From Amycolatopsis sp. NBC_01480 (GTDB taxonomy: Bacteria > Actinomycetota > Actinomycetes > Mycobacteriales > Pseudonocardiaceae): a stretch of DNA of 64,000 bases. The notes under the pieces were generated by a model. That model was not told where the DNA came from. It did not search any database and worked only from the letters and a program-made list of their open reading frames with translations. Positions within the stretch are counted from its first letter, which is position 1; each line of letters starts with the position of its first letter. Made by a program: the position numbers and the translations under genes. The DNA is taken from positions 1,922,001 to 1,986,000 of the forward strand of contig NZ_CP109442.1 of NCBI RefSeq assembly GCF_036227205.1, read 5' to 3'. Positions 7,159-37,944 of this stretch are shown piece by piece.

Positions 7159-7514
7159 CCTCCGGTTCTCGGATCACTGTGTCGTACGTCACACATTACC
7201 GGGACGAGAACTACGCCAATAGGATATTTCGGCGACCCGACCCGCCCTGGGCGAATACAAGTTGATGCCCCCTTAAGGTTGCCGCCAGCCATCAGGGTGA
7301 TCGTCCCACCTGGTGCCATCACGGCCGGTGGACAACTTTCGGGCATTATGAAATTCTCGTCCCCGAAAGCATCACATGAACGCAATGGGGGCGTTGTGAT
7401 CAGCCACTCGACGGTGAGCAGCATTCACTCTGGTCCAGGTTGAATTCCGCCCGGGAAATTCGCGAAATTCCTTCAGATATGGCGTTGTGCGAAGCAGGGA
7501 ACCTGGGGGACAGG
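7159..7514. other. Divergent intergenic region between sigma operon and LuxR gene
   Basis: This 356-bp non-coding stretch carries the promoters of the leftward sigma operon and of the rightward LuxR-type gene. It is clearly lower in GC than the genes beside it, for example around GGGCATTATGAAATTCTCG. I see one near-perfect inverted repeat at 7178-7193 (listed separately) and no confident sigma-70 boxes. Confidence 0.6.
7178..7193. promoter_or_regulatory. Inverted repeat upstream of ECF sigma operon
   Basis: TGTGTCGTACGTCACA is a 16-bp dyad with a single mismatched pair, centred 28 bp upstream of the sigma ATG, within the expected core promoter. It could be an operator or part of an autoregulated ECF promoter. 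No cognate regulator can be assigned. Confidence 0.35.
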
Positions 7515-8183
7515 TTGAAGATCAAGGTATTCATCTCTTGTGCCGACCCACTCACGCGAGCCGGGCTCTCGGCGCTGCTGACCGGTCAGGACGACCTCGA
7601 GGTCATCGGCCAGTGCGGCCGGGTGTGCGAAGCGCTCGCCCAGCTGCCGGGCCTGGACGAGGTGGTGGCGGTGGTGCCCGACCCGGGCGACGACTTCACC
7701 GCGTTCCGCCGGCTGGGCGCCACGGCCAAGGTGATCACGTTCGCCGAACTCGGGGACGCCTTCCGGCCGGTGGACCTGATCACGCTGAACGCGCGGGCGG
7801 TCTTGTCGCCGGCCACGACCCCGGACGAGCTGATGCTCGCGATCCGGGTGGTGGCGGCGGGCGACACCGTGCTGATGCCGGTCGAGGTGCACCGCCAGGT
7901 GTCGTCCCTGATGCAGGACTCGGACACCACCCGCCGCGGTGGCGCGGACCTGCAGCTGACCAGCCGGGAACGCGACGTGCTGGAGCTGCTCGCCTATGGA
8001 CTGTCCAACGCGGACATCGCGCTCCGGCTGTCGGTCTCGGCGGCGACGGTGCGCTCGCACGTCCACCACATCCTGCAGAAGTTCGCCGTGCCCAGCCGGG
8101 CCCAGGCGGTGATCGCGGCGTACGGGGCCGGGCTGGTCGCGCTCGCGGCGAGCGAGGACAGGAGGCTGCCGGAACTCGCCTGA
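7515..8183 (+). CDS. Orphan LuxR-family regulator with degenerate receiver domain
   Basis: 222 aa. The C-terminus has a complete NarL/LuxR helix-turn-helix (LTSRERDVLELLAYGLSNADIA, then SAATVRSHVHHILQKF). The N-terminal domain has receiver-like secondary structure (KIKVFISCADPLTRAGLSALL) but the usual phosphoacceptor strand reads VVAVVPDPGDD, and the conserved Lys near the end is replaced (AVLSPATTPDELM), so phosphorylation is doubtful. The start chosen is TTG at 7515 with GGGGGA just upstream; ATG at 7479 is in frame but has no ribosome binding site. It has no adjacent kinase and points toward the RiPP cluster end, making it a candidate pathway-specific regulator. That role is inferred from position. 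Confidence 0.78.
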   Translation: MKIKVFISCADPLTRAGLSALLTGQDDLEVIGQCGRVCEALAQLPGLDEVVAVVPDPGDDFTAFRRLGATAKVITFAELGDAFRPVDLITLNARAVLSPATTPDELMLAIRVVAAGDTVLMPVEVHRQVSSLMQDSDTTRRGGADLQLTSRERDVLELLAYGLSNADIALRLSVSAATVRSHVHHILQKFAVPSRAQAVIAAYGAGLVALAASEDRRLPELA

Positions 8184-8267
8184 CGAACCCGGGCCGGGTG
8201 AGCGGCGCGAGGGGAAGGACCGGCGCCACCCGCCCGCGACGTCGGCTTCATCAAGACAGGCCGCACG

Positions 8268-8313
8268 GCCGAAGGGACCTCCCGCACCGGCTGGCGCGGA
8301 AAGCCCCTTCGGC
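8268..8313. terminator. Hairpin between convergent LuxR gene and 48-aa peptide gene
   Basis: GCCGAAGGG (8268-8276) pairs with CCCTTCGGC (8305-8313). The loop contains an inner CCGC/GCGG stem, giving a long two-part hairpin between convergent genes. This is a probable bidirectional terminator. Confidence 0.5.
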
Positions 8314-8332
8314 GTTGAGCCGTGACGGCAGG

Positions 8333-8479
8333 TCAGTAGCTGCCGTTGTACTTCTTTTTGTCGTCCTTCTTGTCTTTCTTGTCCTTCTTGCCGAACCAGC
8401 CGCCCTTGCCCTTGGAACCGATGACATTCGCCAGCGGCGGTTTGCGGTCGCCGTCGTCCTTTTTGCCGAAACTACCCAT
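8333..8479 (-). CDS. 48-aa Lys/Asp-rich peptide of unknown function
   Basis: A short gene with a clear Shine-Dalgarno sequence (GGGAGTAAGGAA directly before ATG at 8479) and a TGA stop. The product begins MGSFGKKDDGDRKPPLANVI and ends in a run of Lys/Asp followed by YNGSY. The motif FGKKD occurs twice (residues 4-8 and 29-33), and the middle is Gly/Lys-rich (GSKGKGGW). There is no Cys, no signal peptide and no membrane segment; the protein is extremely charged and probably disordered. It lies 41 bp after the response-regulator gene on the same strand, so it is the last gene of that operon and, by extension, of the RiPP cluster. I do not recognise a family. An immunity or regulatory peptide, or a third precursor-like product, are all possible. 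Confidence 0.6.
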   Translation of the reverse strand: MGSFGKKDDGDRKPPLANVIGSKGKGGWFGKKDKKDKKDDKKKYNGSY

Positions 8480-8520
8480 TTCCTTACTCCCTTCCCGGAA
8501 AAAGCGGGAGCCGGCCGGGA

Positions 8521-9129
8521 TTACAGCCAGCCCATGTTCCTGGCGTGCCGGACCGCGCTCATGCGGTTGTCGACACCCAGCTTGGTGATCGCCGCGGACA
8601 TGTAGTTGCGCACGGTGCCCTCCTGCAGCGAAAGCGTCTTCGCGATGCCCGACAGCGGACGCCCGTCCTCGGCCAGCCGGAGGATCTCCAGCTCACGCGC
8701 GGCGAGCGGGCACTCCCCGGCGAACATCGCGTCGGCGACCAGGTCGGGGTCGAGGTAGCGGCCGCCGGCGTGCACCTCGCGGATGACCTTGGCCAGCTCC
8801 GTGCCCGACACGTTCTTGGTCACGAACCCGCGCGCGCCCGCCTGCACGGCCCGCTTCAGGTAGCCGGGACGGCCGTGGCTGGTCAGCATCACCAGCGCCA
8901 GGCCGGGATGCCCGGCGGCGAGCTGCTCGGCGGCCGAGAGCCCGTCCAGCACCGGCATGTCGATGTCCAGCACCACCAGGTCGAGCTCGGTGCCGGCGGC
9001 GATCGCCACCGCCTCGGCCCCGTCCTCGGCCTGGGCCACGACGTCGATGTCCGGCTCCAGCCCGACCAGGGTGACCAGCGCGGTGCGGATCAGCTCCTGG
9101 TCCTCGGCGATCAGTACGCGGATGGTCAC
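8521..9129 (-). CDS. NarL/DesR-type response regulator
   Basis: 202 aa. The receiver domain has the acidic pocket (IAEDQELI), phosphoacceptor Asp in LDLVVLDIDMPVLDGL, and conserved Lys in GFVTKNVSG. The C-terminal helix-turn-helix reads LAARELEILRLAEDGRPLSG followed by SLQEGTVRNYMSAAITKLG, the DesR-like variant. The GTG start at 9129 overlaps the kinase stop (GTGA), making the pair certain. It follows an ABC-2 exporter operon immediately after the RiPP modification genes, so it probably adjusts expression of that exporter in response to the product or to envelope stress. Confidence 0.93.
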   Translation of the reverse strand: MTIRVLIAEDQELIRTALVTLVGLEPDIDVVAQAEDGAEAVAIAAGTELDLVVLDIDMPVLDGLSAAEQLAAGHPGLALVMLTSHGRPGYLKRAVQAGARGFVTKNVSGTELAKVIREVHAGGRYLDPDLVADAMFAGECPLAARELEILRLAEDGRPLSGIAKTLSLQEGTVRNYMSAAITKLGVDNRMSAVRHARNMGWL

Positions 9130-10346
9130 TTCTCCTCCAGCGGGGCCGAAGCGGTGAGCCGGAAGCCGCCGCCGGGCTCCGGTCCGCTCTCCAGCGTGCC
9201 GCCGACGGCGCCGAGCCGCTCGGCCAGCCCGGCCAGGCCGTTGCCCAGCCCGTCGGCCGGGCTCTCGCGGACGCCGTTGTTGGTCACCACCAGGCTGATC
9301 CGCCCGCCCGTCTGCTGGAAGCCGATGTCGCACCGGGTGGCCTCGCTGTGGCGCAGGATGTTCGTGACGGCCTCGCGCACCACCCAGCCGAACACCGGCT
9401 CGACCCGGTCCGGCAGGCCCGCGGGCACCTCGTCCACCCGGCACTCGACCCCGGCCGCGGTCAGCACACTCACCCCGCCCTCGACCTCGGCCTTCAGCGA
9501 CTGCCGGCGGTAACCCCGCACCAGCGTGCGCACCTCGTCCACGGACCGGCGGGCGAGATCGACGACCGCGTCCATCTCAGCCGCGCCGCGCTCCGGATCA
9601 CGGGCGGTGAGCCGGGCCGCGACCTCGCCCTTCAACGCGATCACGGACAGGCTGTGGCCCAGCAGGTCGTGCACGTCGCGGGCGAAGCGCAGCCGCTCCT
9701 CCAGCACCGCGACCCGCGCGAGCTCGCCGCGGCTGCGCTCGACCTCGCCGTTGAGCAGGATCACCGTGCCCACCACGGCGACCACCACCATCACCACGAG
9801 CCCGCGGCCGATCAGGTCGACGATCTCCCCGGCCGGCAGCGCCGAGCGCGCGAGCAGCAGCCAGGAGCCGCCGACCACGATCACGACCAGTGCGGCGGCG
9901 CGCACCCGGCTGAGCGTGAAGACCGCGGCGCCGCAGAAGATCGCCGGCAGCGCCACCAGGGCCGGACCGAAGCGCAGGTACATGCCCACGGCGAGGATCC
10001 CGGCCACGACCAGCGACCAGGGTTTTCCGCCGGCCACCAGCTGGGTGCCGCTCCAGATCACGTGGGCGAGCACAGCGCTGAAGGCGGCCAGGCCCAGCAG
10101 CGTGGCCCAGAGAGCGCCGGTCCGCGGTGCGCCGGAGGAGAACAGCGGCTCGACGCCGTACGCGACGCAGAGCACGATCAGCAGGATCGTCGCCGTCCGG
10201 GCCACCGCGGTCCGCGAGCGTCGCGCCATGGCCCGTGTTTCCTCCCCGTTCCCCCGGACGAGCGGAGCGCGGAGCGCGACGGCGCCGAAGGTCTCCATCA
10301 CGACCACCTGTTCGCTCATTGGATCACAGCTCACCGGCGCGGACAT
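9126..10346 (-). CDS. Sensor histidine kinase (DesK/NarX-like, HisKA_3)
   Basis: 406 aa. The N-terminal half has about six membrane segments (ATILLIVLCVAYG, LLGLAAFSAVLAHVIW, VVIVVGGSWLLLA, LVVMVVVAVVGTVILL), with no large sensor loop. The phosphorylation motif is ARDVHDLLGHSLSVIALKGE, followed by the HATPase N-box REAVTNILRHS and G-box GLGNGLAGLAERL. Such intramembrane-type kinases usually detect membrane disturbance. The ATG at 10346 is 1 bp after the permease stop; internal ATGs (10319, 10229) are alternatives because the first about 40 residues are charged and non-conserved. It is co-transcribed with an ABC-2 exporter and its response regulator. Confidence 0.9.
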   Translation of the reverse strand: MSAPVSCDPMSEQVVVMETFGAVALRAPLVRGNGEETRAMARRSRTAVARTATILLIVLCVAYGVEPLFSSGAPRTGALWATLLGLAAFSAVLAHVIWSGTQLVAGGKPWSLVVAGILAVGMYLRFGPALVALPAIFCGAAVFTLSRVRAAALVVIVVGGSWLLLARSALPAGEIVDLIGRGLVVMVVVAVVGTVILLNGEVERSRGELARVAVLEERLRFARDVHDLLGHSLSVIALKGEVAARLTARDPERGAAEMDAVVDLARRSVDEVRTLVRGYRRQSLKAEVEGGVSVLTAAGVECRVDEVPAGLPDRVEPVFGWVVREAVTNILRHSEATRCDIGFQQTGGRISLVVTNNGVRESPADGLGNGLAGLAERLGAVGGTLESGPEPGGGFRLTASAPLEEK

Positions 10347-10347
10347 C

Positions 10348-11175
10348 TCAGCGACCGGACCGCTTGGGGTCCCAGCGGAAGAACTTGCGGGCCAGCGACA
10401 GCCCGATCACGGCCCAGGCCACGGTCACGCACAGCGGGCCGATGCAGGCCTGGAACTGGCCGAGGAAGCCCAGCGGGGCCCCGGCGCCGGACAGGCCCAT
10501 GATCGCGTTGTGGCCGGCGAAGTCCGCGCCGAGGTAGGCCGTGCGCACGATGCTGACCACCGGCGCCATCGGCAGGTAGACCGCGGCGTCCGCGAGCGGG
10601 CCGGGCAGCGACGAGAGCGGTGCGTAGATCCCGGAGCAGAACATGAACAGCACCATCACCGGCGTGACGATCCACATCGAGGTGTCGGCGCTGGGCAGGA
10701 TCCCGGAGATCCCGACCGCGAGCAGCGCGAACATCGCCACCCCCAGCACCAGCCCGACGACCAGCAGCAACGGGTTCGCGGGCGCGCCGGCGTCCAGGGC
10801 CACCAGGCCGAAGACGATCAGCAGCACCGCCACGATCAGCCCGGGCAGCGAGGCCGCGGCCCCCTCTCCGGCGAAGATCGCGCTGTCCGGCAGCGAGGCC
10901 GCGCGCAATCGCTTGTACACCAACGCATCGCGCCGCGAGGTCACCGCGTTCACCAGCGTGTACACCGTGAAGAACAAGGCGAAGGCGAGGAATCCGGTGA
11001 GCGCGTACATCCCGGCGGGCGCGCCGTCCACGGCCGGGCCGTGGCGGAGCTGGAACGGCATGAAGCCGCCGAGCACGAGGGGCACCAGGGTGCCGGTGAG
11101 CGCGATGCCGATGCGCTTCCAGTACACCTGCTGGGACAACAGGAACTGCGCCCGCGCGTAACCGAGCCAGGTCAT
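10348..11175 (-). CDS. ABC-2 type transporter permease
   Basis: 275 aa with six membrane segments, a typical ABC-2 permease. The cytoplasmic loop SRRDALVYKRLRAASLPDSA is the conserved coupling segment of this family. The ATG at 11175 overlaps the ATPase stop (ATGA). With the ATPase at 11172-12110 it forms a DrrAB-like exporter. Its place directly downstream of the dehydratase genes and upstream of a two-component system suggests self-protection against the cluster product; this is an inference from context. Confidence 0.88.
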   Translation of the reverse strand: MTWLGYARAQFLLSQQVYWKRIGIALTGTLVPLVLGGFMPFQLRHGPAVDGAPAGMYALTGFLAFALFFTVYTLVNAVTSRRDALVYKRLRAASLPDSAIFAGEGAAASLPGLIVAVLLIVFGLVALDAGAPANPLLLVVGLVLGVAMFALLAVGISGILPSADTSMWIVTPVMVLFMFCSGIYAPLSSLPGPLADAAVYLPMAPVVSIVRTAYLGADFAGHNAIMGLSGAGAPLGFLGQFQACIGPLCVTVAWAVIGLSLARKFFRWDPKRSGR

Positions 11176-12110
11176 CGTGAGCTCCTCTCCCCGGCGGCGG
11201 CCGCCAGGAACGCGTCTTCCAGCGAGCCGGCGCTGACGTCCAGCTCGGCCAGCTCGACCCCGCGCCCGGCCGCCCAGCCGAGCAGGGTGGCCAGGGTGCG
11301 CTGTGGTTCGTGGGTGTGCACGAGGACCCGGCCTTCGTGCTCGGCCACCTCGGCGCCCTCCAGCGGCGGCAGGTCGGCGGCGCCGAGCGCGGGCGGCAGC
11401 CGGAACGAGACGGCGGTGGCCGAGCGCGCGGTGATCTCGGCGAGCGTGCCCTCCCGCACGATCCGGCCGCGGTCCATGATCGCGACCTGGTCGGCGAGCG
11501 CCTCGGCCTCTTCCATGTAGTGCGTGGTGAGCAGCACCGTCATGCCGCCGAGGATGAGCTCGCGCAGCAGCTGCCAGACGTTGCGGCGCGCCTCCGGGTC
11601 GAGCCCGGTGGTCGGCTCGTCGAGGAACAGCACGTCGGGCCCGCCGAGCAGGCCGAGGGTCAGGTCGAGGCGGCGCTTCTCGCCACCGGAGAGCTTCCCG
11701 ACCGTGACCCCGGCCCGGCCGCCGAGGTCGACCATCTCCAGCGCCTCGGCCCGCGGCCGGGCGCCCGGGGTGAACCGGCGCCAGGCGTCGACCGTCTCGG
11801 CCACCGTGAGGGTCTCGAGGAAACCGGCCTCCTGCAAGACAATGCCGACTCGCGTGGCGATCTTCCGCCGCTCGGTCAACGGGTCGGCGCCGAGCACCCG
11901 GACGGTGCCGCTGGTCGGCCGCTGGAAGCCGGTCAGCACGTCGACCGTGCTGGTCTTGCCGGCCCCGTTGGTGCCGAGCAGCGCCAGCACCTGCCCCGGG
12001 GGCACGGCCAGCGAAATGCCGTCCACCGCGGTGAAATTCCCGTAGTCCAGGTGGAGGTCGCGTATCTCGATTACCGCTTCGTCACTCACGGATTCGAATT
12101 TACCGGCCAT
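11172..12110 (-). CDS. ABC transporter ATP-binding protein (DrrA/CcmA-like)
   Basis: 312 aa. Walker A LLGTNGAGKTST, Q-loop IVLQEAG, signature LSGGEKRRLDL, Walker B VLFLDEPTTGLD and H-loop TTHYMEEAE are all canonical. A C-terminal extension of about 80 aa after the NBD resembles the regulatory tail of drug-export ATPases. The ATG at 12110 has GGAGG 7 bp upstream; a longer in-frame start at 12179 would overlap the preceding gene and is rejected. It is separated from the elimination-domain gene by only 58 bp, with no evident terminator, so it may be read from the RiPP operon. Confidence 0.92.
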   Translation of the reverse strand: MAGKFESVSDEAVIEIRDLHLDYGNFTAVDGISLAVPPGQVLALLGTNGAGKTSTVDVLTGFQRPTSGTVRVLGADPLTERRKIATRVGIVLQEAGFLETLTVAETVDAWRRFTPGARPRAEALEMVDLGGRAGVTVGKLSGGEKRRLDLTLGLLGGPDVLFLDEPTTGLDPEARRNVWQLLRELILGGMTVLLTTHYMEEAEALADQVAIMDRGRIVREGTLAEITARSATAVSFRLPPALGAADLPPLEGAEVAEHEGRVLVHTHEPQRTLATLLGWAAGRGVELAELDVSAGSLEDAFLAAAAGERSSR

Positions 12111-12168
12111 GGCCCAGCCTCCGTCAGTGGATGAGAACACGAGTATCGGATGACATTTTCCATCCGGT

Positions 12169-12954
12169 TCACGTGACAAGTGTCAGGTGGTGAAGCTGCT
12201 GGTCAACGGCCGAAAGGAAGAGCAGTCGGGCGATCACCGCCTCCGCCGCGGGGAACACCCCGAGACGATTTCCGGCCAGGTGCAGGTGATGGAAAAGCTG
12301 AAAGTAACCCGACCGCAGCGGCATCGAATCGGCCGCCGCCCAGAATTGCCGAGCGAAACCGCGGAGCAGTTCCCCGGACGGTCCGCCGAGCACGGCGTTC
12401 GCCTCGGCCAGCAGCCCGCCCGCCTTGGCGCGCACCCGCGGGTCGGCCAGCGAGGTCCACGGCGCCGCCGTCCACGGGCGCCGGGCCGGGCCGCCCGACC
12501 AGTACCAGCCGTACTGGTGCAGGAAAGCCGGGCGCTGCCGCTCGGGCAGGCCGGCGGTCATGGCCAGCATCAACGCGGCGGCGAGCCCCGAACGGCTGCC
12601 GTCGCGGTGCCGGGCCAGCAGCTCCAGCGCAGTTTCACTGCTCAGCTGGAAGAGTCGTTCGGCGACCGCCATGTCGCCGAATTTTGCGATCTCCGGCTCG
12701 TAGACGTGCTTGCTGTACGCGCCGGCCAGCGCTTCGTCGACAACCTGCTCGACGCGGTTCAACGCGGCGGGCCCGGCGCTCAGCCGCCAGCGCACGTGCA
12801 GGCCGGTGGCGTCGAGGAACCTCAGGAAGAACCAGCGCAGGTCCGGCACCTCCGCGCGCAACTGCCCGACGACGGGGGCCACCACGGTGCGCAGCAGCGG
12901 CTCGCCCGCCCCGGCCGGTTCGACCGGGACGCGGTAGTAGAGCCATTCAGCCAT
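12169..12954 (-). CDS. SpaB_C-type dehydratase elimination protein (split LanB C-domain)
   Basis: 261 aa. Segments LHVRWRLSAGPAALNRVEQV and YEPEIAKFGDMAVAERLF, followed by SSETALELL, are hallmarks of the lantibiotic dehydratase C-terminal (thiopeptide-type bacteriocin biosynthesis) family. In split systems such as TbtC and GodG this protein removes glutamate from glutamylated Ser/Thr to give dehydroamino acids. The same fold was recruited for pyridine synthases (TbtD). Because this is the only copy and the LanB partner lacks the C-domain, the elimination role is the necessary one. The ATG at 12954 overlaps the LanB stop by 8 bp. It acts in the cytoplasm on the leader-bearing precursor. Confidence 0.88.
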   Translation of the reverse strand: MAEWLYYRVPVEPAGAGEPLLRTVVAPVVGQLRAEVPDLRWFFLRFLDATGLHVRWRLSAGPAALNRVEQVVDEALAGAYSKHVYEPEIAKFGDMAVAERLFQLSSETALELLARHRDGSRSGLAAALMLAMTAGLPERQRPAFLHQYGWYWSGGPARRPWTAAPWTSLADPRVRAKAGGLLAEANAVLGGPSGELLRGFARQFWAAADSMPLRSGYFQLFHHLHLAGNRLGVFPAAEAVIARLLFLSAVDQQLHHLTLVT

Positions 12955-15325
12955 GGCGCACCAGTCCCTGGAACTCAGTCGCGACCGGTTCGCCGCCAGG
13001 CCCCGGGACCCAATGGCCACGACGGCCGGGCAGCGCCTCCGTGAAGTCCACTGTGGATACGTCCGGGTCGGGTGCGCCGAGCGCGGCCCACACCGGGAAC
13101 GGGTGGTCGAAGCCGAGCCACTGCGGCTTGCGCCGGTCGACGCGGCCGCCGGAGCGGACCACCCCGGTCACGAACACCTCGTCCGGCAGGCCGTGGGCCT
13201 CGCGCCAGGCCCGCAGCCGGGTGAAGAACTCCACCGGCGCCTCACCGCGGTCCGGCCTCGGCACCGCGTCGGCGGGGAAGCTCCAGCGCGCCCGGGCCCA
13301 GACCACCCGGCCCTGCTGCCGCCGGGGCTGGTAGCCGGGGTCCGCGTCGTCGGCCACGCGCCGGTCACGGTCGACCCGGCCGAGCGTCAGCCACGGGTTG
13401 GACAGCAGGCCGACGAGTTCGGCGACCCCGCGTTGCAGGTGCTGCGGCACCGCGCCGGTGTAGGCGAACGCCACCGGACCGTCTACATCGGACACCTGGA
13501 GGGTGTCACTGGCCGGATCGTGGGCGAGAGTCATCCCGTCCAGCCCGGCGCCGGAATCGGGGTGGCGCAGGTCGCCCGGGAGGTGCAGCACGGGCAGGCC
13601 GAGCGCCGGGCGCTGCAGTGAGGCCCAGTCGGCCTGCGGCGTGACCTGGTAGACCCGGCAGCCCGGGTGCAGGCTCCGGGCCCAGCCGGCGAGCGGCTCG
13701 TCCAGGCCGCCCGCCACCGGCGTCCACCGGCCGAGCAGGCCGAGCCCGCCGGAGTGCACCGCGTTGACCACGGTGAGGTGCGCCCCGGCGGCCACCTCGT
13801 CCGCGGAACCGGCGGCGACCTGGAAGAACACCGCGTTGCTCGCGCTCGCCAGGGTTCCGGTGCCCTGCAGGCGGGCGGCGTCCCGGGCGACGGCGAGGTC
13901 GACCTCCGGCAGCAGCGCGGCCAGCGCGACCGGATCGGACCGGCGGAGGAACGCGTAGAGGAAGTCGAGCACCGGCACGTTCGCCGCGCCCCGGCCGTGG
14001 CGAAGCACGAAGCAGCGCACCAATTCGGCGTACCGCCCGTCGCGCCAGATGTGCGGGACAAGCGTGCGGCCGATCTCCGCGAGGTCCTCGGTCACCGTCG
14101 CCGGCCGGTCCGGGCACCGCGGCGCGGCCACGGCTTCGTGGAACAGCGGCAGCTCACCGGCCCACGACGGCGCGGGCTGGTCCAGCGCCGCGAACGCGTC
14201 CACGACGGCCTGGTGCGCCGACCCGATCGCGGCGGCCCGGCGAGCCGGCTCCGATACGGCGGCGACGATCCGCTCCTGTTCGGCCAGCTCCCCCGCCGCC
14301 GTCGCGAACGGGCCGCCGATCCGCTCCGCGGCCCACGCCGCCAGCTCGGCGAAGTCCGACCGCGCCCGGATCGACCAGGGCAGCACCGGTTGCAGCAGAC
14401 CGGTTTCCGCGAGCCGGCGCGCCAGCCCGGGCTCGTCCGGGAAGCACTCGGCGAGCCGCACCGGGCCGTCGGGCAGCTCGTCGAGCAGCCAGTCGTACAG
14501 CCCGCAGCCGACCAGCTCGTCGACTCGCAGCGGCGTGCGGCGCACGACCGCGCGGCTGGGCAGGGTGGCCAGCCACCGGTCGTCGACCTTTCGCAGCCCG
14601 GATACGGCGGCGACGGTCAGCCGGTCCGCGAGCCGGCGATCCTTCAAGCAGGCCAGCAACAAGGCGAGAGCGTGGGGCCGCGACGAACTGGTGACTCGCG
14701 CGGGCTCGCCGTCCGGGATGCCGACCGTCGTCAGCGAGCTGAACGGGCTGGTCTTCAGTGCGATCCGGGTGAGGTAAGCGGTCGCGCTGCGGACCGAGCG
14801 GGCCGACGGGGCGTCGTCGAGCGGGGCGGCGAGCAGCCGTCCGGTGAACTCCGGGCTCGCCAGCGCCAGCCCGCTCGCGACTTCCGGCGCGCCGAGGTGG
14901 CCACGCATCGCCTTGGCCGCCCGCGCGGTCTCCACCGCGAAGTCCGCACCGGCCGCGGTGCGCCGGGCCTGGGCGCACCGCACCAGCTCGGCCCACCGGG
15001 TCACCTCCGCGGCAACCGCGGGCGGCAGTCCGGCGGGCACCGGCACCGGTCGTCCATTGTGGACGTCACGGCGCAGCTTCACCACGGCCCGCCGCAGCGG
15101 TTTGTCCAGCTGGGGCACCAGCTCGTAGAGCCGATCCCCGAGCGGCCCGGCCAGCGCGGCCGCCGCCCGCTCGTGCTCCGCGGCCTCACGCAGCGCGGCC
15201 ACGGTGTCGGGCGCGGCGAGGTCGTCGACCGCCGACACCGGCAGCCCGGCCACCCGGACGACGGTCACCGGGGCGACCACCGGCCGGGACGCCGCGGCGG
15301 CCAGCGTTCCGACGTCGGGGATCAC
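12947..15325 (-). CDS. LanB-type dehydratase, glutamylation domain only
   Basis: 792 aa. The motif YLTRIALKTSPFSSLTTVG at about residues 185-203 is diagnostic of lantibiotic dehydratase N-terminal domains. Such enzymes use Glu-tRNA to glutamylate Ser and Thr side chains of the precursor. The length (about 800 aa, compared with about 1000 for full LanB) and the absence of a SpaB_C domain show a split dehydratase as in thiopeptide and goadsporin clusters; the elimination half is the next gene. The GTG start at 15325 overlaps the oxidase stop (GTGA). No LanC cyclase gene is present, so dehydrated residues probably stay as Dha/Dhb and are not converted to lanthionine. Confidence 0.93.
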   Translation of the reverse strand: MIPDVGTLAAAASRPVVAPVTVVRVAGLPVSAVDDLAAPDTVAALREAAEHERAAAALAGPLGDRLYELVPQLDKPLRRAVVKLRRDVHNGRPVPVPAGLPPAVAAEVTRWAELVRCAQARRTAAGADFAVETARAAKAMRGHLGAPEVASGLALASPEFTGRLLAAPLDDAPSARSVRSATAYLTRIALKTSPFSSLTTVGIPDGEPARVTSSSRPHALALLLACLKDRRLADRLTVAAVSGLRKVDDRWLATLPSRAVVRRTPLRVDELVGCGLYDWLLDELPDGPVRLAECFPDEPGLARRLAETGLLQPVLPWSIRARSDFAELAAWAAERIGGPFATAAGELAEQERIVAAVSEPARRAAAIGSAHQAVVDAFAALDQPAPSWAGELPLFHEAVAAPRCPDRPATVTEDLAEIGRTLVPHIWRDGRYAELVRCFVLRHGRGAANVPVLDFLYAFLRRSDPVALAALLPEVDLAVARDAARLQGTGTLASASNAVFFQVAAGSADEVAAGAHLTVVNAVHSGGLGLLGRWTPVAGGLDEPLAGWARSLHPGCRVYQVTPQADWASLQRPALGLPVLHLPGDLRHPDSGAGLDGMTLAHDPASDTLQVSDVDGPVAFAYTGAVPQHLQRGVAELVGLLSNPWLTLGRVDRDRRVADDADPGYQPRRQQGRVVWARARWSFPADAVPRPDRGEAPVEFFTRLRAWREAHGLPDEVFVTGVVRSGGRVDRRKPQWLGFDHPFPVWAALGAPDPDVSTVDFTEALPGRRGHWVPGPGGEPVATEFQGLVRHG

Positions 15326-16830: not shown

Positions 16831-16841
16831 GGCTGGGCTCC

Positions 16842-19100
16842 TCACAGGAACATCGCGGTCGGGTTGAGCGCGGCTTCGGCGGTGGGCTCGGCCAGCCAGC
16901 CCATCCGCACGGGCACGTCGTAGAGCCGGCCGGGCGCGTACCGCGTCCAGAAGTGGCGCAGGCCGGGCACCAGCACCTTCACCACGGGCAGGCCGATGTC
17001 CGGCCGGGTCTGGTCGAGCACCAGCATCTCCAACCCGGCCCGCTCGACGGTCCGCTGCGCGAGCCGGACGTCCTCGGCCAGGTCGTCGGTGCTGTGGTCG
17101 GTGTAGTCGGCGGCGGTGCGCGCCGGCCCGTCGAGCGGACGCAGGTACGGCTGGTTCGCCAGCGTCGCCGTGCGCCACCAGCGGTGCTGCTCCGGGTCGG
17201 GGAAGGCGTACTCCTCGGCTCCGTCCTTCGCGCCGATCACGGCGGGCAGGAACTGGTTCATCTCCGTCATCGCGCGGGAGATGGCGATCTTGATGTCGAA
17301 GTGCGCGCCGAACGCGATCAGCAGGTCCTCCACCGGCTTGTCGATCCGGCGGGAAACCGTGACCACGGTGGGGATGCCGAGGTCGGTGGTGAGGTCGAGC
17401 GCCCACGCCTCGCGGTTCGCCGCGCGATAGCTCCGCTGCCAGGTGTCGAAGTACGGGTCGCCGAAACTGGCCAGGTCGATCGCCGGACGGCGGAGCATGT
17501 TGTACCACCAGAGCGCGACGCTGTCGCGTTCCACCAGCTCCATGAAGCCCTGGACGATCGCGTCCTCGAGGCAGGTCCCGGCGGCGTTGCCGTTGGAATC
17601 CGCGCCGCTGTAACGGTTTCCGGCCCGCAGCGGGTAGCCGAAGAACAGGCTGGCGGTGGGGAAGTACTTGGTGCGCTCGTGCGTCAGCGACCACACCGGC
17701 GTCCAGTCGATCTTCTCCGCCGGGTCGAACGGATCGCAGACCCGCTGGAAGTGCGAATCGCGTGCGTTCCACTCGGCCCGGTCGCGGAACTGGGCGTCGC
17801 TGAACAAGTGCAGCTCGTTCGGCTGGAACGCCTGCTCCGGGCCGAGCTCTTGGTAGGTGGCGGAAATCCGGCCCTCGTCACCGCGGTAGAGCCCGCTGTA
17901 CCGCTCGACGGCCTCGCCGATCGCCGACGCCCGGGCCTGCACGTCGGTCATGCCCTTGCCGGACGCGGCGCTGCGCAGGCCGGCCCGCAGGTCCGACACG
18001 TGCCCCATCGGCACGGCGAAGTTCTGCCCCGCCTGGTAGGTGTGCAGACCCTCCACATCGGACGGCAGCTTGACGAGCTGCTTCACCGGGCCGGTGATCG
18101 GGCTGACCAGCGGCTCGAACTCGGCGAGCAGCTTCTCCGGCGACTTCGCGCGGTGCCCGCCGTCGGTGATCTTCGCCTTGGGCCGGCTGGTCAGCCGCAC
18201 CGGCGCCTGGTGCAGCCGGCTCTGCAGCTCGCGGTCGCCGCAGGCGGCGCACTGCGGGCGGCGGGTGAGGCGGTGGTGCCGGCTGTCCATGGTCACGGTG
18301 TCGAAGGTGACGACCTCGGTGTGGTGCTCATTCGGACGATGCTCGCCCGTGGCCAGCCATGCTGCTGTCTGCACCGCGGTGAGCCTCAGGCCGAGCTGCC
18401 GGGTGGTCTCGAGATCGGCGAGCGAGGTCACCGGCGGGGCGATGAGACCGTTGCGCTGCTTGACGTAGTTCAGCACCATCTGGTTCGAAGACAGCCGCGC
18501 GGCCAGGCACCACCAGCAGGCCGTGGTGCCCGGTTCGAACACCGGTCCGGTCCACAGCAGACCGCCGGTGGGCTTGGCGAGCAGCCAGGGGCGGCCGTCG
18601 GCGAGTCGGTCGAGGTTGAAGTCCGCGATGCCGGGGTTGAGGTAGTCGTCGACGAGCACGACGGTGAGGGCGGACGGGCCGGAACCGAGGGTGAGCCCGG
18701 CCTGCTCGGCCGCCTCGGCGAACCCCTCGTCGGAGACATCGCCGAACCGCACCACGTCGATCGGCGTCGCCGCGACCCGGGCCAGCGCCGCGTCACCGTC
18801 GAGGGAATGCAGCTCCCAGAACCCGCCGGCGCGCTGGTCGGCCCCGGCGTCGACCTCCGCGACGTGCCCCGCGGCGACGAGCTTGTCCAGCACCGCCTCG
18901 ACCCGCGCGGCCGGGAACTCCCCCGCCAGCGCGTCGACGACCTCGGCGCGCGTGTGCTTGCCCGCGAGCAACGGCGTCGCCCGCTCCATCAGCCCGCCCG
19001 CCAGCCGAACATGCCCGAACCGCTCGGCGATCAGGTACACCCCATCGCCCTCGACGACCTCGGCACGCAGGTACCGCTTGAACCGGATGACTTTGTTCAT
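16842..19100 (-). CDS. Fused E1-like/YcaO cyclodehydratase (TOMM)
   Basis: 752 aa. Residues 1-80 look like a leader-binding winged-helix (RRE) segment, and residues to about 300 an E1/ThiF-like partner domain with paired cysteines ACWWC (195/198) and CAAC (284/287) that should bind zinc. From about residue 330 is the YcaO domain: RASAIGEAVERYSG and GTCLEDAIVQGFMELVERD carry the acidic residues of the ATP/Mg site. YcaO enzymes phosphorylate the amide and cyclise Cys, Ser or Thr to azolines. Fusion of both domains in one chain resembles the goadsporin GodD type, in contrast to the split TbtF/TbtG of thiomuracin. The C-terminus is NPTAMFL, not the PxPxP ending of some YcaOs. Confidence 0.93.
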   Translation of the reverse strand: MNKVIRFKRYLRAEVVEGDGVYLIAERFGHVRLAGGLMERATPLLAGKHTRAEVVDALAGEFPAARVEAVLDKLVAAGHVAEVDAGADQRAGGFWELHSLDGDAALARVAATPIDVVRFGDVSDEGFAEAAEQAGLTLGSGPSALTVVLVDDYLNPGIADFNLDRLADGRPWLLAKPTGGLLWTGPVFEPGTTACWWCLAARLSSNQMVLNYVKQRNGLIAPPVTSLADLETTRQLGLRLTAVQTAAWLATGEHRPNEHHTEVVTFDTVTMDSRHHRLTRRPQCAACGDRELQSRLHQAPVRLTSRPKAKITDGGHRAKSPEKLLAEFEPLVSPITGPVKQLVKLPSDVEGLHTYQAGQNFAVPMGHVSDLRAGLRSAASGKGMTDVQARASAIGEAVERYSGLYRGDEGRISATYQELGPEQAFQPNELHLFSDAQFRDRAEWNARDSHFQRVCDPFDPAEKIDWTPVWSLTHERTKYFPTASLFFGYPLRAGNRYSGADSNGNAAGTCLEDAIVQGFMELVERDSVALWWYNMLRRPAIDLASFGDPYFDTWQRSYRAANREAWALDLTTDLGIPTVVTVSRRIDKPVEDLLIAFGAHFDIKIAISRAMTEMNQFLPAVIGAKDGAEEYAFPDPEQHRWWRTATLANQPYLRPLDGPARTAADYTDHSTDDLAEDVRLAQRTVERAGLEMLVLDQTRPDIGLPVVKVLVPGLRHFWTRYAPGRLYDVPVRMGWLAEPTAEAALNPTAMFL

Positions 19101-20779
19101 GAACTCCCCCAGCGGGTTTCGGTGTTCGTTGGCACGTCGTTGGGTGGCGCGCTGTTTGGTGGCGCGCTGTGGCCGAGCACGAGCACCCGGTCGGCGACGT
19201 CGAGGAACAGGGAGGACCGGCTGACGACGACCCTGGTCACGCCCTCCAGCCTGCGCAGTGCGTCGGCGACCACGTCCGGTGGCTCGTCGAGCAGCAGCAC
19301 CCGCGGCCGGCGCGCGAACGCCCGGGCGAGTTGCAGGAGCTTGAGCTGGCTCGCGGAGAACCCGCCGGCGCCGCCACTGACCACAGTGGACAGACCCATG
19401 GGAAGGTCGCGGAGCACGTCGGCCAGGCCGGCTTTCCGGAGCGCGTCCCAGGCTTGCTCGTCGGTGGCTGCGGAACGGCCGAGCACCACGGTGCGGACGG
19501 TGCCGCGCGGGAGGTCGGCGTCCTGCCGGAGGTAACCGGTCCCGTCGCGGTCGGCTGCGCTGAGCCGGTCGAGGAGAGTGGTCTTGCCGGAACCGGAGGG
19601 GCCGGTGATGACGACGAACTCACCCGGGACCAGCTCCGCGGCGGGTGTATTGGTCGCTGTGCCGGACCCGAGCGGGACCAAATCGGGTTCCTCAGTGGTC
19701 TTCGCCGCGGTCAGCAAGGCGCGGATGCCCCGGACGGCTTCCCCGCCGACGGCGAACACCGAGCGGACCGTGTTGTCCGAGCGGCCCAGCACCAGCACGA
19801 GCTGGGCCAGGACCGCGCACGCGGCCAGGAGGTCATCCGCGTGCGCGGTCCCGAGAACGGTGGCGAGCAAGAGCAAGGGGATCGCCGCCGCGAGCGCGGC
19901 CGACCGCGGTTCGGGCCTGGCGGCGGTGCGTTCCGGGAGGAGCCGGGCGAGCATCCGGCGTTCGGCGGCGTAGAGGTGGATCTCGTCGATTCCGGTGAGG
20001 AGCCGGTCGAGCCCGTCCCCGGTCAGGTCCGCGGCCGGGCCCCGAGCCGACCGGGCCAGCACCACAAGCCCGGCGACGGCGACCGCGAGCACCGCCCAAG
20101 CCGTCCCGGCACCGATGGTCAGCAACGCGAAGAAGGCCGCTGCGACCATGGCCGTCACGAGCAGCGCGTCGAGCGCCGCGGCGGCTACGAGCGTGCGCAG
20201 CCGGGAAACCACGGTGGTCCCGGCCGCGCGCAGTTCTGGCTCCGTGGCACGCAATCCGGTCCGGGCCGGGTCGAGCAGCAGACCCCAGAGCGAGGGTTCC
20301 AGCGTCGCCTGCAGCCGATGCTGGGCGTCGGTGGCGAGCCGGTCACGCAGGCCCAGCAGCAGAATGATCGGCACCACGGCCAACGCGGGCGCCAGCCAGC
20401 CGTACCGCACCGCCAGCACCGAGGAGCCACAGCTGATCAGCGCGGCCAGCAACCCGGTAACCACCACCGCGACCGGAACGCGGGGCCTGCCGACATCCTT
20501 CGCGGACAGGTGCCAGACCGCCCGGACGTCCGCCGGCTCCGGATGCCGGCCGGACCGCAGCAGGACGGCCCGGCCGGCAGCATCGAGCACCAACGCGGTC
20601 CCGGCCACGGTGCTGCCGGGCGCAACCCGCACCGCCCGCCAGCCGACCGCCTCGGCCGCCACCTTCACCGGATCGGGACCGCTCGGCACGTCTGCCACCT
20701 CGCCGAACAACGGCCGCAGCGCCTCACGGCAAGCGGGCCACGAGTCCGTGGCAGTCGGTTCACGGTCCACGGTGGTCAT
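19097..20779 (-). CDS. ABC exporter half-transporter, partner of the C39 exporter
   Basis: 560 aa. The N-terminal about 100 residues are soluble, followed by a membrane domain (VVVTGLLAALISCG, LAVVPIILLLGL, TAMVAAAFFALLTIG) and a nucleotide-binding domain. Walker A is canonical (ITGPSGSGKTT) and Walker B is VLLLDEPPD, but the signature reads FSASQLKLL where LSGGQ is expected, and the switch His is missing (RVVVSRSS). This is the pattern of the asymmetric half of a heterodimeric exporter. The ATG at 20779 overlaps the stop of the C39 transporter gene (ATGA), so the two are made together. No peptidase domain is present. It probably exports the processed peptide with its partner. Confidence 0.82.
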   Translation of the reverse strand: MTTVDREPTATDSWPACREALRPLFGEVADVPSGPDPVKVAAEAVGWRAVRVAPGSTVAGTALVLDAAGRAVLLRSGRHPEPADVRAVWHLSAKDVGRPRVPVAVVVTGLLAALISCGSSVLAVRYGWLAPALAVVPIILLLGLRDRLATDAQHRLQATLEPSLWGLLLDPARTGLRATEPELRAAGTTVVSRLRTLVAAAALDALLVTAMVAAAFFALLTIGAGTAWAVLAVAVAGLVVLARSARGPAADLTGDGLDRLLTGIDEIHLYAAERRMLARLLPERTAARPEPRSAALAAAIPLLLLATVLGTAHADDLLAACAVLAQLVLVLGRSDNTVRSVFAVGGEAVRGIRALLTAAKTTEEPDLVPLGSGTATNTPAAELVPGEFVVITGPSGSGKTTLLDRLSAADRDGTGYLRQDADLPRGTVRTVVLGRSAATDEQAWDALRKAGLADVLRDLPMGLSTVVSGGAGGFSASQLKLLQLARAFARRPRVLLLDEPPDVVADALRRLEGVTRVVVSRSSLFLDVADRVLVLGHSAPPNSAPPNDVPTNTETRWGSS

Positions 20780-22770
20780 GACGTGACCGGTCCCAGCTCC
20801 AGAACCTGCCACCGAGTGTCCAAAGCAGACGGCACAGAACCACAGGCGATCACCAAGGTCGCGCCGCGGCGAGCCAGGGAGCGCTCCAGGCGGGGGTCCC
20901 CAATGAGGTCCGGCTCGTCGAGCAGCAGGATCGACGGATCGCGGAGCAAGGCCCTTGCCAGGGCGAGACGACGGCGTTCACCGCCGCTGAAATTCCGGCC
21001 GCCCGCGGCGATCCACGCGGTGCGGGCGCCACCACGACCGGTGATCAGGTCAGCGAGACCCGCGTCGTCGAGGGCGCGGCTGACCTGGGCGTCGGTGATG
21101 TCGTCGTCGGACAGCGTGAGGTTTTCGTGCACTGTGCCGGGGAATAGCCACGGGACCTGCGGCAAGTACCCGACCCCGTCACGCAGTGTGGCCCGCGGGA
21201 TCTCGCCATGCGTACGGCCGCCGAGGCGGATCTCGCCCTCAGTGGGCTCGAGCGCGCCGGCCAGCAGCCGCAACAGGGTCGACTTGCCGGCACCGGTCAC
21301 CATCAGCCGTCCGCCGGCGGGGACGCTCACCGTGACCCCGCGCAGCACCGGGCGGCGGGGCGAGTAGCCGAAACCGACGTCGACCAGGTCGACTTGTCCG
21401 TCCATTGTGGATCCACAAGAACCGGCTTCAGCGGCGAAACGCGGATGCGGGGCGGCTTCGTCCAGGTCGTCCAGCACGTTCGTCCGGGCGATCAGTTCGG
21501 GCAGGCCGCCGAGGTGTTCCAGCACCGCACGGGCGTTGATGAGGAACGGGGCAAGCGCGACCAGAGCCGCAGCCTGACCGACCGCACCGGCGACCGCCGC
21601 GAGTTCCACGCCCGTCGCCACCGAGGTCCAGGCCCGCGCGCGGTCCGCGGCGCGGCGGCGCGCGGCCAGCTCTTCGCCCTGGATCTCGGCGAATTCCGCG
21701 AACAGGTCCGGTTCCGACTGCTCGGCGTGCACCGCGTCGAGCCGGGCGAACGCGGCGCGCGCGATCCCGTTGCGGCGGGTCAGCTCCCCGACGAACAGCC
21801 GCCGCGACACCGCCGAACGACGCTGTCCGATCGCCCGCAGCACCGCCGCGAGGCCCGCTCCGACGACGCCGATCAGCAGGGCCGGCCAGGAAAGCCACCC
21901 GAGCACCACGGCCACCGGCACCAGGAACGCCGCACTGGCCAGCAGCGGCACCACCCGGTGCGCGAGCAGGACCGCCGAGGTCTCGGCGAACCGCACCTGC
22001 GCCCCCAGCGCCGCGTTCGAACGACGGCCGAGGAACGACGCGGGCACCGTCAGCAGCTTGCCCAGCACCGCCCGCTTCCGCCGTCCGGCCACCACGTCGT
22101 GGACCTCGCCGGCCAGCCACCGCTGCCCGTACGCCAGCGCGGCGGCCGCGAGCGCCGCGACGATCAGCGCGGCCACGGCGACGCCGGAACTCAGCCGTCC
22201 GGCGACAACACCGTCGACGAGCAGGGCCGCAACACTGGTCACCAGGCCGAGGCCGAGACCGGCGGCGGCCGCCGCGGTTACGCGACCCCGGACCTCGGCG
22301 AGCCACCGCGCGCAGGTCCGCAGGGTCGACCGGCGCGGTGACGCGGCCGTCGCAGCGGGCGCGGCAGAGGTGAAAGTCAGCACGATGCCACTGAACTCGG
22401 CCCGGAACTGGGCACTGGTGCGCCGATCCCGGCCGCGGGCAGGATCGTTGACCAGGGCGCCGGCGTCAACCGTTTCGAGAACCGCAAAGTGGTTGCCGTG
22501 CAACAGAACGATGGCCGGCAGTGGCAGCGCCCGTAACGCGGGAAACGGGTCGCCCTCACGAATTCGCAGGCCGCGTCCGGTGAGCCCGTGGCCGGCCCCG
22601 ACCCGGAGCAGGTCGGCCGCCGTGGTGCCGTCGCGCGAGACGCCGCATTCCGCCCGCAGCTGCGCGGCGGGGACCGGCGTGCCGCGGTGCGCGAGCAGGA
22701 TGCCCAGGCAGGCGGGACCGCAGTCGGCCTCCTCCACCTGCCCGATGACGGGCGTCGCGCCGGACCTCAC
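20776..22770 (-). CDS. C39 peptidase-containing ABC exporter (leader-cleaving)
   Basis: 664 aa. Residues 1-130 are a C39 cysteine protease: QVEEADCGPACLGILL with Gln11 and Cys17, HGNHFAVLE with His94, and VNDP with Asp109. These proteases cut precursor leaders after a double-Gly-type site during export. A membrane domain follows, then an NBD with an intact signature (FSGGERRRLALARAL) and Walker B ILLLDEPD. The Walker A, LMVTGAGKST at about residue 489, is three residues short of the usual GxxGxGKS/T form, and the switch-His position is not His (VIACGS). The GTG start at 22770 overlaps the P450 stop. The neighbours include two precursors with GG and AA cleavage sites. Confidence 0.9.
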   Translation of the reverse strand: MRSGATPVIGQVEEADCGPACLGILLAHRGTPVPAAQLRAECGVSRDGTTAADLLRVGAGHGLTGRGLRIREGDPFPALRALPLPAIVLLHGNHFAVLETVDAGALVNDPARGRDRRTSAQFRAEFSGIVLTFTSAAPAATAASPRRSTLRTCARWLAEVRGRVTAAAAAGLGLGLVTSVAALLVDGVVAGRLSSGVAVAALIVAALAAAALAYGQRWLAGEVHDVVAGRRKRAVLGKLLTVPASFLGRRSNAALGAQVRFAETSAVLLAHRVVPLLASAAFLVPVAVVLGWLSWPALLIGVVGAGLAAVLRAIGQRRSAVSRRLFVGELTRRNGIARAAFARLDAVHAEQSEPDLFAEFAEIQGEELAARRRAADRARAWTSVATGVELAAVAGAVGQAAALVALAPFLINARAVLEHLGGLPELIARTNVLDDLDEAAPHPRFAAEAGSCGSTMDGQVDLVDVGFGYSPRRPVLRGVTVSVPAGGRLMVTGAGKSTLLRLLAGALEPTEGEIRLGGRTHGEIPRATLRDGVGYLPQVPWLFPGTVHENLTLSDDDITDAQVSRALDDAGLADLITGRGGARTAWIAAGGRNFSGGERRRLALARALLRDPSILLLDEPDLIGDPRLERSLARRGATLVIACGSVPSALDTRWQVLELGPVTS

Positions 22771-24065: not shown

Positions 24066-24090
24066 GTCCATTCCCCCAGCTCTCGGGCGA

Positions 24091-24126
24091 TACCGGTGTG
24101 TGCCGGCCGGCCGGCACACACCGGTA
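24091..24126. terminator. Perfect 36-bp palindrome between precursor and modification genes
   Basis: The arms are TACCGGTGTGTGCCGGCC and its exact complement, 18 bp each with no unpaired centre. The palindrome starts 36 bp downstream of the stop codon of the 50-aa precursor and lies 26 bp upstream of the P450 start. In RNA it would form a very stable hairpin; no U-tract follows. The likely role is partial termination or 3' protection, so that precursor mRNA exceeds enzyme mRNA, as in many lantibiotic operons. Confidence 0.75.
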
Positions 24127-24162
24127 GCTACCTCAGTTCTCGCGGTGCGAAGACCGTGAAAA

Positions 24163-24315
24163 TCAGCCGCCCAGGCAGGCCGCGGTGCCGACCGTGGCCG
24201 GGGTGCTGATGGTGCCGGCGGTGCTGGCGGTGGCCGCGCCACCCACCTCCGAGAGCTCTTCCACCGTCAGGTCCTCGATCGGCAGATCGGTCGTGTTCAG
24301 GTTTTCCGGAGTCAT
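24163..24315 (-). CDS. RiPP precursor peptide 1 (50 aa)
   Basis: A small gene with a strong ribosome binding site (GAGGGGAAAGAC before ATG at 24315). The acidic leader ends LPIEDLTVEELSEVGG, a double-Gly site suited to the C39 protease. The predicted core (residues 27-50) starts AATASTAGTIST and ends TVGTAACLGG; it holds six Thr, two Ser and one Cys. Leader and core are paralogous to the 46-aa peptide encoded just upstream (EDL-EEL-V block, STP, TAAC-I/L-G). The adjacent YcaO, SagB and split LanB enzymes predict azoles at Cys/Ser/Thr and Dha/Dhb at others. The low Cys count is unlike typical thiopeptide cores. The ending Leu-Gly-Gly could also be trimmed. Confidence 0.85.
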   Translation of the reverse strand: MTPENLNTTDLPIEDLTVEELSEVGGAATASTAGTISTPATVGTAACLGG

Positions 24316-24379
24316 GTCTTTCCCCTCAGAAATGTGTTTACCCGAATTACTGCGGAAAGGTAATGCAGAAAAAGCCGGA

Positions 24380-24520
24380 TCAGACGCTGGCGCAGCCGAT
24401 GCAGGCCGCGGTGCTGACCGGCGTGCTCGCGGTCGAGGCGGTGCCGGCACAGTCGGCCGCCGCCACGTCGTTGAGCTCCTCGATGGACAGGTCTTCCACG
24501 ATCGGAGCGTTCTGCTCCAT
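24380..24520 (-). CDS. RiPP precursor peptide 2 (46 aa)
   Basis: The first gene of the cluster; it is too short for standard ORF limits. ATG at 24520, TGA at 24382-24380; the ribosome binding site is weak (GGGTG). The leader is MEQNAPIVEDLSIEELNDVA; an Ala-Ala at residues 20-21 aligns with the Gly-Gly of precursor 1 and is the likely C39 cut site. The core begins ADCAGTASTASTP and ends VSTAACIGCASV, with three Cys, four Ser and four Thr. The shared STP and TAAC(I/L)G motifs show duplication from a common ancestor followed by divergence. The extra Cys residues predict more thiazoles than in peptide 1. It is separated from precursor 1 by 64 bp without a terminator, so they are co-transcribed. 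Confidence 0.82.
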   Translation of the reverse strand: MEQNAPIVEDLSIEELNDVAAADCAGTASTASTPVSTAACIGCASV

Positions 24521-26669: not shown

Positions 26670-26745
26670 CACAGGCCATACCCTCTCATACGCCCGCCCC
26701 CGAAACGCAACACCGTGTTTGTTGCCCGCGCGGTATTGTCGATAA

Positions 26746-27150: not shown

Positions 27151-27173
27151 AACCGTCATGAACACTCACGAGC
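27126..27173. repeat. Palindromic repeat family 1, copy A
   Basis: Perfect 23-bp arms around a 2-nt AG centre; the arm begins GCTCGTGAGTGTTCATGACG and ends GTT. It sits between the convergent 134-aa gene and mfd, overlapping the end of the former. Copies at 37891 and 49259 share the core GAGTGTT(C/T)ATGACGGTT. The likely role is a bidirectional terminator. Confidence 0.85.
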
Positions 27174-37340: not shown

Positions 37341-37354
37341 CTTTACTGTTAAAG
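37341..37354. promoter_or_regulatory. Probable MarR operator in the SDR/MarR divergon
   Basis: CTTTACTGTTAAAG is an inverted repeat with 5-bp perfect arms (CTTTA/TAAAG) that fills almost the entire 16-bp space between the divergent SDR and MarR ATG codons. Binding would block both promoters, giving autoregulation plus control of the SDR. Transcripts would be very short-leadered or leaderless. Confidence 0.5.
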
Positions 37355-37355
37355 T

Positions 37356-37901: not shown

Positions 37902-37944
37902 GTGTTTATGACGGTTAGAACCGTCATAAACACTCACGAGTCCT
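37891..37944. repeat. Palindromic repeat family 1, copy B
   Basis: The longest copy: 26-bp perfect arms around an AG centre. The arm begins AGGACTCGTGAGTGTTTATG and ends ACGGTT. The C-to-T change relative to copy A is matched by a compensating change in the other arm, so pairing is preserved. It overlaps the MarR stop codon and ends next to a decayed NUDIX gene. Confidence 0.88.

Follow-up and report, generated by a model that had tools for sequence, protein, structure and literature searches.

Gene Content of the Cluster

The sequence studied here, hereafter the window, is a stretch of 64,000 nucleotides from Amycolatopsis sp. NBC_01480 and represents the 1.92-1.99 Mb part of its 10.1 Mb genome. 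Gene recognition by Pfam and NCBIfam profile searches verified a goadsporin-like cluster for ribosomally synthesized and post-translationally modified peptides (RiPPs) at positions 7,440-24,520 of the window (Table 1). The operon lies on the - strand with stop-start overlaps and runs leftward from two precursor genes at 24,520 to a small open reading frame (ORF) at 8,333, beyond which lies a convergent LuxR-type gene. A preliminary description of this DNA had listed the cluster as entirely leftward. All of the genes it named were present and recognized by profiles, and both direction and overlaps hold for the named operon genes; the 48-aa ORF had to be added, the starts of precursors A and B were corrected to 24,315 and 24,520, and the LuxR gene, which falls within its range, is on the + strand. 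We consider it likely that the two precursor cores, which consist mostly of X-[Ser/Thr/Cys]-X words, give rise to linear, goadsporin-like peptides containing azoles and dehydroalanine (Dha) that are subsequently oxidized by a cytochrome P450.

Table 1. Genes of the RiPP cluster and the convergent regulator, with coordinates in the window. ABC, ATP-binding cassette.
Feature	Coordinates	Strand	Evidence or remarks
Precursor B, 46 aa	24380..24520	-	core DCA GTA STA STP V STA ACI GCA SV at 24383-24454
Precursor A, 50 aa	24163..24315	-	core ATA STA GTI STP ATV GTA ACL GG at 24166-24234
Cytochrome P450	22767..24071	-	PF00067
C39 peptidase-ABC exporter subunit, probably cuts the leader	20776..22770	-	PF03412, PF00005
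ABC exporter partner without peptidase	19097..20779	-	profile match
Fused leader-binding and YcaO cyclodehydratase, LynD/TruD type	16842..19100	-	PF02624, TIGR03882 and TIGR03604
SagB/ThcOx azoline oxidase	15322..16830	-	PF22767, PF00881, TIGR03605
LanB N-half, GodF homologue, predicted Glu-tRNA-dependent glutamylation of Ser	12947..15325	-	structure-database match 9jhq
LanB C-half, predicted glutamate elimination	12169..12954	-	PF14028; His225 aligns with NisB His961
DrrA-like ABC ATPase, likely self-protection	11172..12110	-	profile match
ABC-2 membrane protein, likely self-protection	10348..11175	-	profile match
HisKA_3 sensor kinase	9126..10346	-	profile match
NarL-type response regulator	8521..9129	-	GerE domain
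48-aa Lys/Gly-rich ORF, conserved	8333..8479	-	relatives
LuxR-type regulator, convergent	7440..8183	+	homologue at equivalent place in L012, L072, L015, L014, L013

Related Clusters in Other Actinomycetes

The gene for the LanB N-half was found in 18 of 390 Pseudonocardiaceae genomes (E <= 1e-30) and, at 1e-60, in 8 of 394 genomes of a class-wide sample and 10 of 295 Streptomyces genomes, each tally including the genome on which it was centered. A scan of genome contigs yielded 41 loci with a relative of this gene. Gene order was mapped at these loci, at 13 further regions, at three regions of the window's own genome and at 18 more regions, one of which repeats L013 and one of which was a miss; mapping was not extended to G007, G347, and G362, nor to G131, G147, and G411, which correspond to L012, L015, and, very likely, L014.

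The same-direction order P450, C39-ABC, ABC partner, YcaO, SagB, LanB N-half, and LanB C-half occurs in 14 actinomycete clusters, namely that of the window and 13 others (L012, L072, L015, L014, L013, L016, L018, L106, and L075-L079). Since these cassettes were chosen by their seven-gene order, that order is constant among them by definition and not as a finding. In the first nine, counting the window and ending with L106, the ABC-2 pair and the two-component system are present as well. L012 (A. saalfeldensis) and L015 lie on contigs of same-genus relatives. At four further loci (L017, L021, L022, and L074), the LanB gene is present but the seven-gene order is not. The occurrence of this order in 13 other clusters rules out chance as an explanation for the cluster in the window.

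Beyond these cassettes, L080 and L107-L121 are mostly multi-precursor clusters with cores of ~27-35 residues, most of which contain SCP. At L060 (G102 C13:114054-116288), the LanB N-half match contains one TAG, perhaps because the gene has decayed or the assembly is in error.

Precursor Cores and Their Three-Residue Words

Precursors A and B occur as near-identical copies at the equivalent place in relatives, with homologues in L012, L072, L015, and L014. We took as core start the residue six past the Leu in the EEL/EDL of the leader, which is where C39 peptidases usually act at double-Gly-type sites. From there, core A parses into 7 words over its 23 residues, and core B parses likewise with one spacer, a Val (Table 1). 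Seven words in core A were reached by 0.42% of 5,000 shuffles, and the 8-word cores of L014, L015, and L013 by <=0.06% of shuffles.

A scan of the 14 cassettes returned 52 candidates, one of which (a frame shadow in L072 with 48% cover) was dropped, leaving 51 precursors with 25 distinct cores. Every one of the 51 has 7-8 words, a cover of 0.84-1.00, and exactly one Pro, and that Pro always closes a word: the fourth in 44/51 and the fifth in 7/51. Since the parser favored Ser or Gly as the opening residue when readings tied, opener counts were redone on spacer-free cores (18 of the 25 distinct ones). Among their 135 words, Ser opens 30 and closes 1, Gly opens 69 and closes 2, and Thr opens 4 and closes 5. 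A stricter scan gave 63 entries in 324 kb (overlapping regions, strain repeats, and alternative leaders included), with no entry in ten block-shuffled DNA sets and none in a 38 kb control, the window from 26,001 to 64,000. In the 31 distinct entries, the start of the first four words coincided with the expected cut in 20 cases and lay one residue past it in 6; in no case did it lie three residues before the cut. Five different word-type precursors accompany a single enzyme set in 7 of the 14 clusters (L018, L106, and L075-L079, with L124-L130).

Several of these results weigh against a word-based reading of the cores. Core B performed poorly in the shuffle tests (5.5% for word count and 17% for register) and needs its spacer Val; being weak on its own statistics, it rests on its relatives. 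Cores 1 and 2 of L013 were weak as well (10% and 16%). The register control was partly built in, since the scan required cover from the expected cut, and the 51 precursors are related and many of them identical, so that their counts are not independent. Moreover, the NCFGTAG... core of L075-L079 has no word opened by Ser or Thr.

Cores of this last kind, without a word-opening Ser, would fit polyazole peptides in which dehydroamino acids are scarce or absent, the modification being due to the YcaO and SagB proteins while the LanB pair acts on only some precursors or on other residues. Goadsporin, too, is described as having only two dehydroalanines, fewer than the Ser that are unused for azoles (PMC5303826). 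However, Ser stands directly before a predicted azole in both window cores and the conserved motifs are kept in both LanB halves, and we regard this alternative as improbable. A lanthionine or other thioether peptide, formed from dehydroamino acids and Cys, might be suspected from the class I LanB pair and the Cys in the cores. Yet every Cys of cores A and B is the center of a word, i.e., a predicted azole position, and Pfam scanning of the 20 cluster and flanking proteins found no LanC-type cyclase among them; we give such a product almost no credence.

The LanB Pair and the Question of a Thiopeptide

The LanB N-half had no Pfam or NCBIfam match at E <= 0.001. Against solved structures, it matched the "Goadsporin biosynthetic protein" 9jhq at 3.1e-100 and the lantibiotic dehydratase-domain protein 6ec7 at 1.3e-20. 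Judging from size and homology, 9jhq appears to be GodF, which is described as homologous to the LanB N-terminal domain (PMC5303826). In a 39-row tree, the 14 cassette LanB N-halves, those of L017, L022, and L074, and GodF formed one group (support 99/94) with GodF outermost; the GodF row was built from two aligned fragments and its branch is long (1.2).

The LanB C-half is the single PF14028 (SpaB_C) protein of the cluster. Counted along the alignment, two of its Arg align with NisB R784 and R786 and its H225 aligns with NisB H961. In NisB, the H961A exchange is reported to leave no dehydration, while R784A had only a mild effect (PMC4341554). The aligned His is present in the thiopeptide elimination protein encoded elsewhere in the same genome and absent from that genome's TclM-like protein. 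At the position of NisB R826, which is a point against elimination, the window protein has Lys, as has the thiopeptide elimination protein of the same genome. Structural comparison of an AlphaFold model (mean predicted local distance difference test score, 85.8) did not separate elimination from [4+2] activity and, by TM-score, leaned toward the latter: by E-value the top match was a [4+2] aza-cyclase variant, followed by MibB, and TM-scores were higher for the pyridine synthases TbtD, PbtD, and TsrL (0.60-0.69) than for MibB, MadB, and NisB (0.52-0.60). Since elimination and [4+2] proteins share one fold, it is the residues, and not the fold, that carry the argument for elimination.

These TM-scores favor a thiopeptide-like macrocycle, in which a pyridine would be closed between two Dha by the cluster's SpaB_C protein or by one elsewhere in the genome. 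Two further facts point the same way: the NCBIfam thiocillin-family model RiPP_thiocil matches both precursors (B, 33.9 bits; A, 28.0 bits; cut-off, 25), and the genome holds a TclM-like protein. However, the same model matches, over its full length and with 72.5 bits, a precursor with a 29-residue core from a cluster of another type (L110), and its name may mislead and is no proof. The preliminary description had held that a pyridine synthase acting from elsewhere in the genome would overturn a linear product; such a candidate does exist, but this TclM-like protein is encoded at a distance of 6.2 Mb, next to a separate Cys-rich precursor that ends in SSSSCTTCICTCSCSS. No [4+2] pyridine synthase was found in the window cluster, whose sole PF14028 protein keeps the elimination His, and in genome G093 (completeness 100) the cassette is present with one PF14028 match in the whole genome. 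Thiopeptide cores are Cys-rich and have Ser at their start; those of the window start with Ala and Asp and hold one and three Cys. The thiopeptide reading was rejected on account of the His equivalent to NisB H961 and of the separate cluster of the TclM-like protein, and we judge it very improbable. The earlier argument that one SpaB_C protein with an elimination role most likely means a linear peptide was upheld, the His being kept and a second SpaB_C being absent from the cluster.

The thiopeptide-type cluster itself (~8.107-8.130 Mb; L085 and L086) comprises LanB halves, the TclM-like protein, and the precursor, and two stretches in it match the window P450. At ~7.689-7.693 Mb (L087 6951-10746), the genome has a second LynD-like YcaO, 44% identical to that of the window, with a SagB oxidase; proteins related to the kinase and the response regulator of the window are also there, and PF14028 was not matched nearby.

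Proposed Pathway and Product

Among solved structures, the YcaO protein is nearest to LynD (608 bits) and TruD (604 bits) and the SagB oxidase to CyaGox. By homology, the fused YcaO protein would use its leader-binding domain to hold the leader, which has an L[ST]hEEL motif, and, following the goadsporin rule, would cyclize the central Thr or Cys of each word to azolines; the SagB oxidase would then aromatize these. Each Ser that directly precedes an azole (S4 and S10 in A; S7, S10, and S14 in B) would be glutamylated by the LanB N-half and then undergo elimination by the C-half. The C39 subunit and its partner probably cut six residues past the EEL Leu, after GGA or AAA, as motif and register suggest, and then export the product. 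The ABC-2 pair is likely to serve self-protection under the control of the two-component system. The predicted products are linear, with 7 azoles and two (A) or three (B) dehydroalanines, and their [M+H]+ values before P450 action were computed as 1802.770 (A) and 1949.715 (B).

The two exporter proteins resemble the halves of a heterodimer. Walker A is shortened in the window's C39 subunit, as it is in L012 and L072, and the partner has a canonical Walker A with a degenerate signature; in L014 the homologues of both form one reading frame of 1,332 residues. We considered this asymmetry as a trait of all cassettes and dropped it, since degenerate ABC sites were seen in the window and, in part, in L012 and L072. 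Exporters of L016, L018, L106, and L075-L079 have ordinary ABC motifs where the patterns matched.

The P450 is of an ordinary bacterial type, and its heme Cys358 is invariant in 8 aligned homologues. We can only speculate that it oxidizes the peptide at or near the invariant Pro12. Multi-precursor relatives with ~27-35 core residues also carry Pro, in SCP, and tblastn detected no P450 homologous to that of the window in the stretches retrieved for them; action on Pro is kept speculative for this reason.

Comparison with Goadsporin and Other Azole Peptides

The cluster shares with that of goadsporin (the god cluster of Streptomyces sp. TP-A0584) a fused cyclodehydratase, a dehydrogenase, a split LanB, and a peptidase-ABC exporter, and it has these traits of the goadsporin family: a GodF-type LanB N-half, a predicted elimination protein with the catalytic His, an X-[S/T/C]-X core, and the peptidase-ABC exporter. 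That the locus holds a goadsporin-type enzyme set, as first proposed, is borne out by the profiles, the 9jhq match, and the placement in the GodF clade; for the fused YcaO and SagB oxidase, the likeness to GodD and GodE is one of description. GodD and GodE have been shown to install azoles on X1-S/T/C-X2, and Dha formation by GodF or LazF to require an azole following the Ser (PMC5303826). The goadsporin core, given as ATVSTILCSGGTLSSAGCV (PMC7231064), parses in the same manner (ATV STI LCS G GTL SSA GCV, with one spacer); the window cores differ from it in having 7 words instead of 6 and one word closed by Pro. No locus among the precursors scanned had the goadsporin core, the Streptomyces search having covered 295 genomes for the LanB gene.

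Two features were considered as novelties and dropped. The C39 exporter, which had been put forward as a distinguishing trait, is no such thing, since GodB is described as a putative ABC transporter that carries a peptidase domain at its N-terminus (PMC5303826), and the LynD/TruD-like YcaO has its parallel in the goadsporin cyclodehydratase, which is described as fused too (PMC4603692). Nor did the view survive that the cluster matches no nameable family: its LanB N-half falls in the GodF clade, and NCBI precursor models match the window peptides. The model RiPP_CPAC (NF033629), which represents one precursor type of the family and carries no function, scored 28.8 and 25.1 bits on the window precursors (cut-off 60) and matched the TTCPAC precursor of the L075 cluster over its full length with 116.4 bits. 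The existence of such models means that the family has been seen before, and a survey from 2015 counted only two goadsporin clusters (PMC4603692). The survey's cluster from "Streptomyces sp. AA4", a strain that is an Amycolatopsis but is entered as Streptomyces in the taxonomy, may correspond to one of the Amycolatopsis cassettes described above.

Set against goadsporin as described, the P450, the exporter partner, the ABC-2 pair, the two-component system, and the second precursor are additional in the window, and the P450 does not figure in the printed goadsporin gene list (godA, B, D-H; PMC5303826). Conversely, Pfam detected no GodH-type GNAT acetyltransferase among the 20 cluster and flanking proteins. 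The goadsporin system includes an extra SRP54 immunity protein, GodI. The window's genome has three PF00448 matches, none near the window; two are full length, presumably Ffh and FtsY, and the third spans 59 model positions. The failure to find an acetyltransferase among the 20 proteins and the count of only two full-length SRP54 proteins imply that self-protection, and perhaps the target, differ from those of goadsporin.

Other azole peptides are less close. Dehydrazoles such as carnazolamide combine azoles with Dha, and their dehydration likewise depends on a neighboring azole; they are, however, described with a LanM-type dehydratase and a long NHLP leader (PMC10676384), whereas the window has a LanB pair and a short leader, and no LanM-type DUF4135 dehydratase was detected by Pfam in the 20 proteins. 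The window's YcaO and oxidase resemble those of cyanobactins in being closest in the Protein Data Bank to LynD/TruD and CyaGox, but the cluster has a C39 exporter and a LanB pair, and the same Pfam scan of 20 proteins revealed no subtilase that could represent a PatA/PatG-type protease or macrocyclase. Spongiicolazolicins A and B, with 29 and 28 residues, have been described as linear azole peptides related to goadsporin (PMC10676384, PMC8838263); from length alone, we would guess that they are related to the multi-precursor loci with cores of ~29 residues.

The cluster can be classed as a goadsporin-type variant that has a P450, two precursors, and cores written in a clear grammar. This word grammar recurs in 13 related clusters sharing the added P450. 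The enzyme set itself is known from goadsporin. No description of the P450-bearing branch was recognized in the literature searched, which was covered mostly by title and the start of the abstract and did not extend to subscription papers. If the proposed reading is correct, goadsporin represents one part of a larger family whose sequence grammar can be read, and product and mass become predictable from the gene. Multi-precursor clusters hint that many strings of words may be handled by a single enzyme set, a property wanted by those who engineer peptides with azole enzymes. Furthermore, given the conserved P450 and the failure to find an extra SRP54, the ideas of a new modification and of a different target in the cell can be tested directly. 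A bolder view, which we hold only tentatively and think rather doubtful, is that the branch is P450-tailored and uses a three-letter peptide code, in which the middle residue becomes an azole, an opening Ser becomes Dha, and the Pro-closing word marks the P450 site; with up to five strings per enzyme set, each cluster would then be a natural polyazole library.

Neighboring Genes and Other Observations

On the precursor side, the cluster is bordered by a MazG gene; past the LuxR gene lie genes for an extracytoplasmic function (ECF) sigma factor, a zinc-finger membrane-type protein, and an ABC ATPase. The 48-aa ORF that closes the operon has a VIGxKG counterpart in only L012, L072, L015, L013, and L014 among the other 13 cassettes, all of which were searched for the motif, and none of its eight database relatives has a domain or a functional name. 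Elsewhere in the window, the - strand ORFs at 26686-27165 and 37349-37933 begin with near-identical N-terminal peptides (VFMTVLTVMNTHE and VFMTVLTVINTHE, respectively), which suggests a small repeat element.

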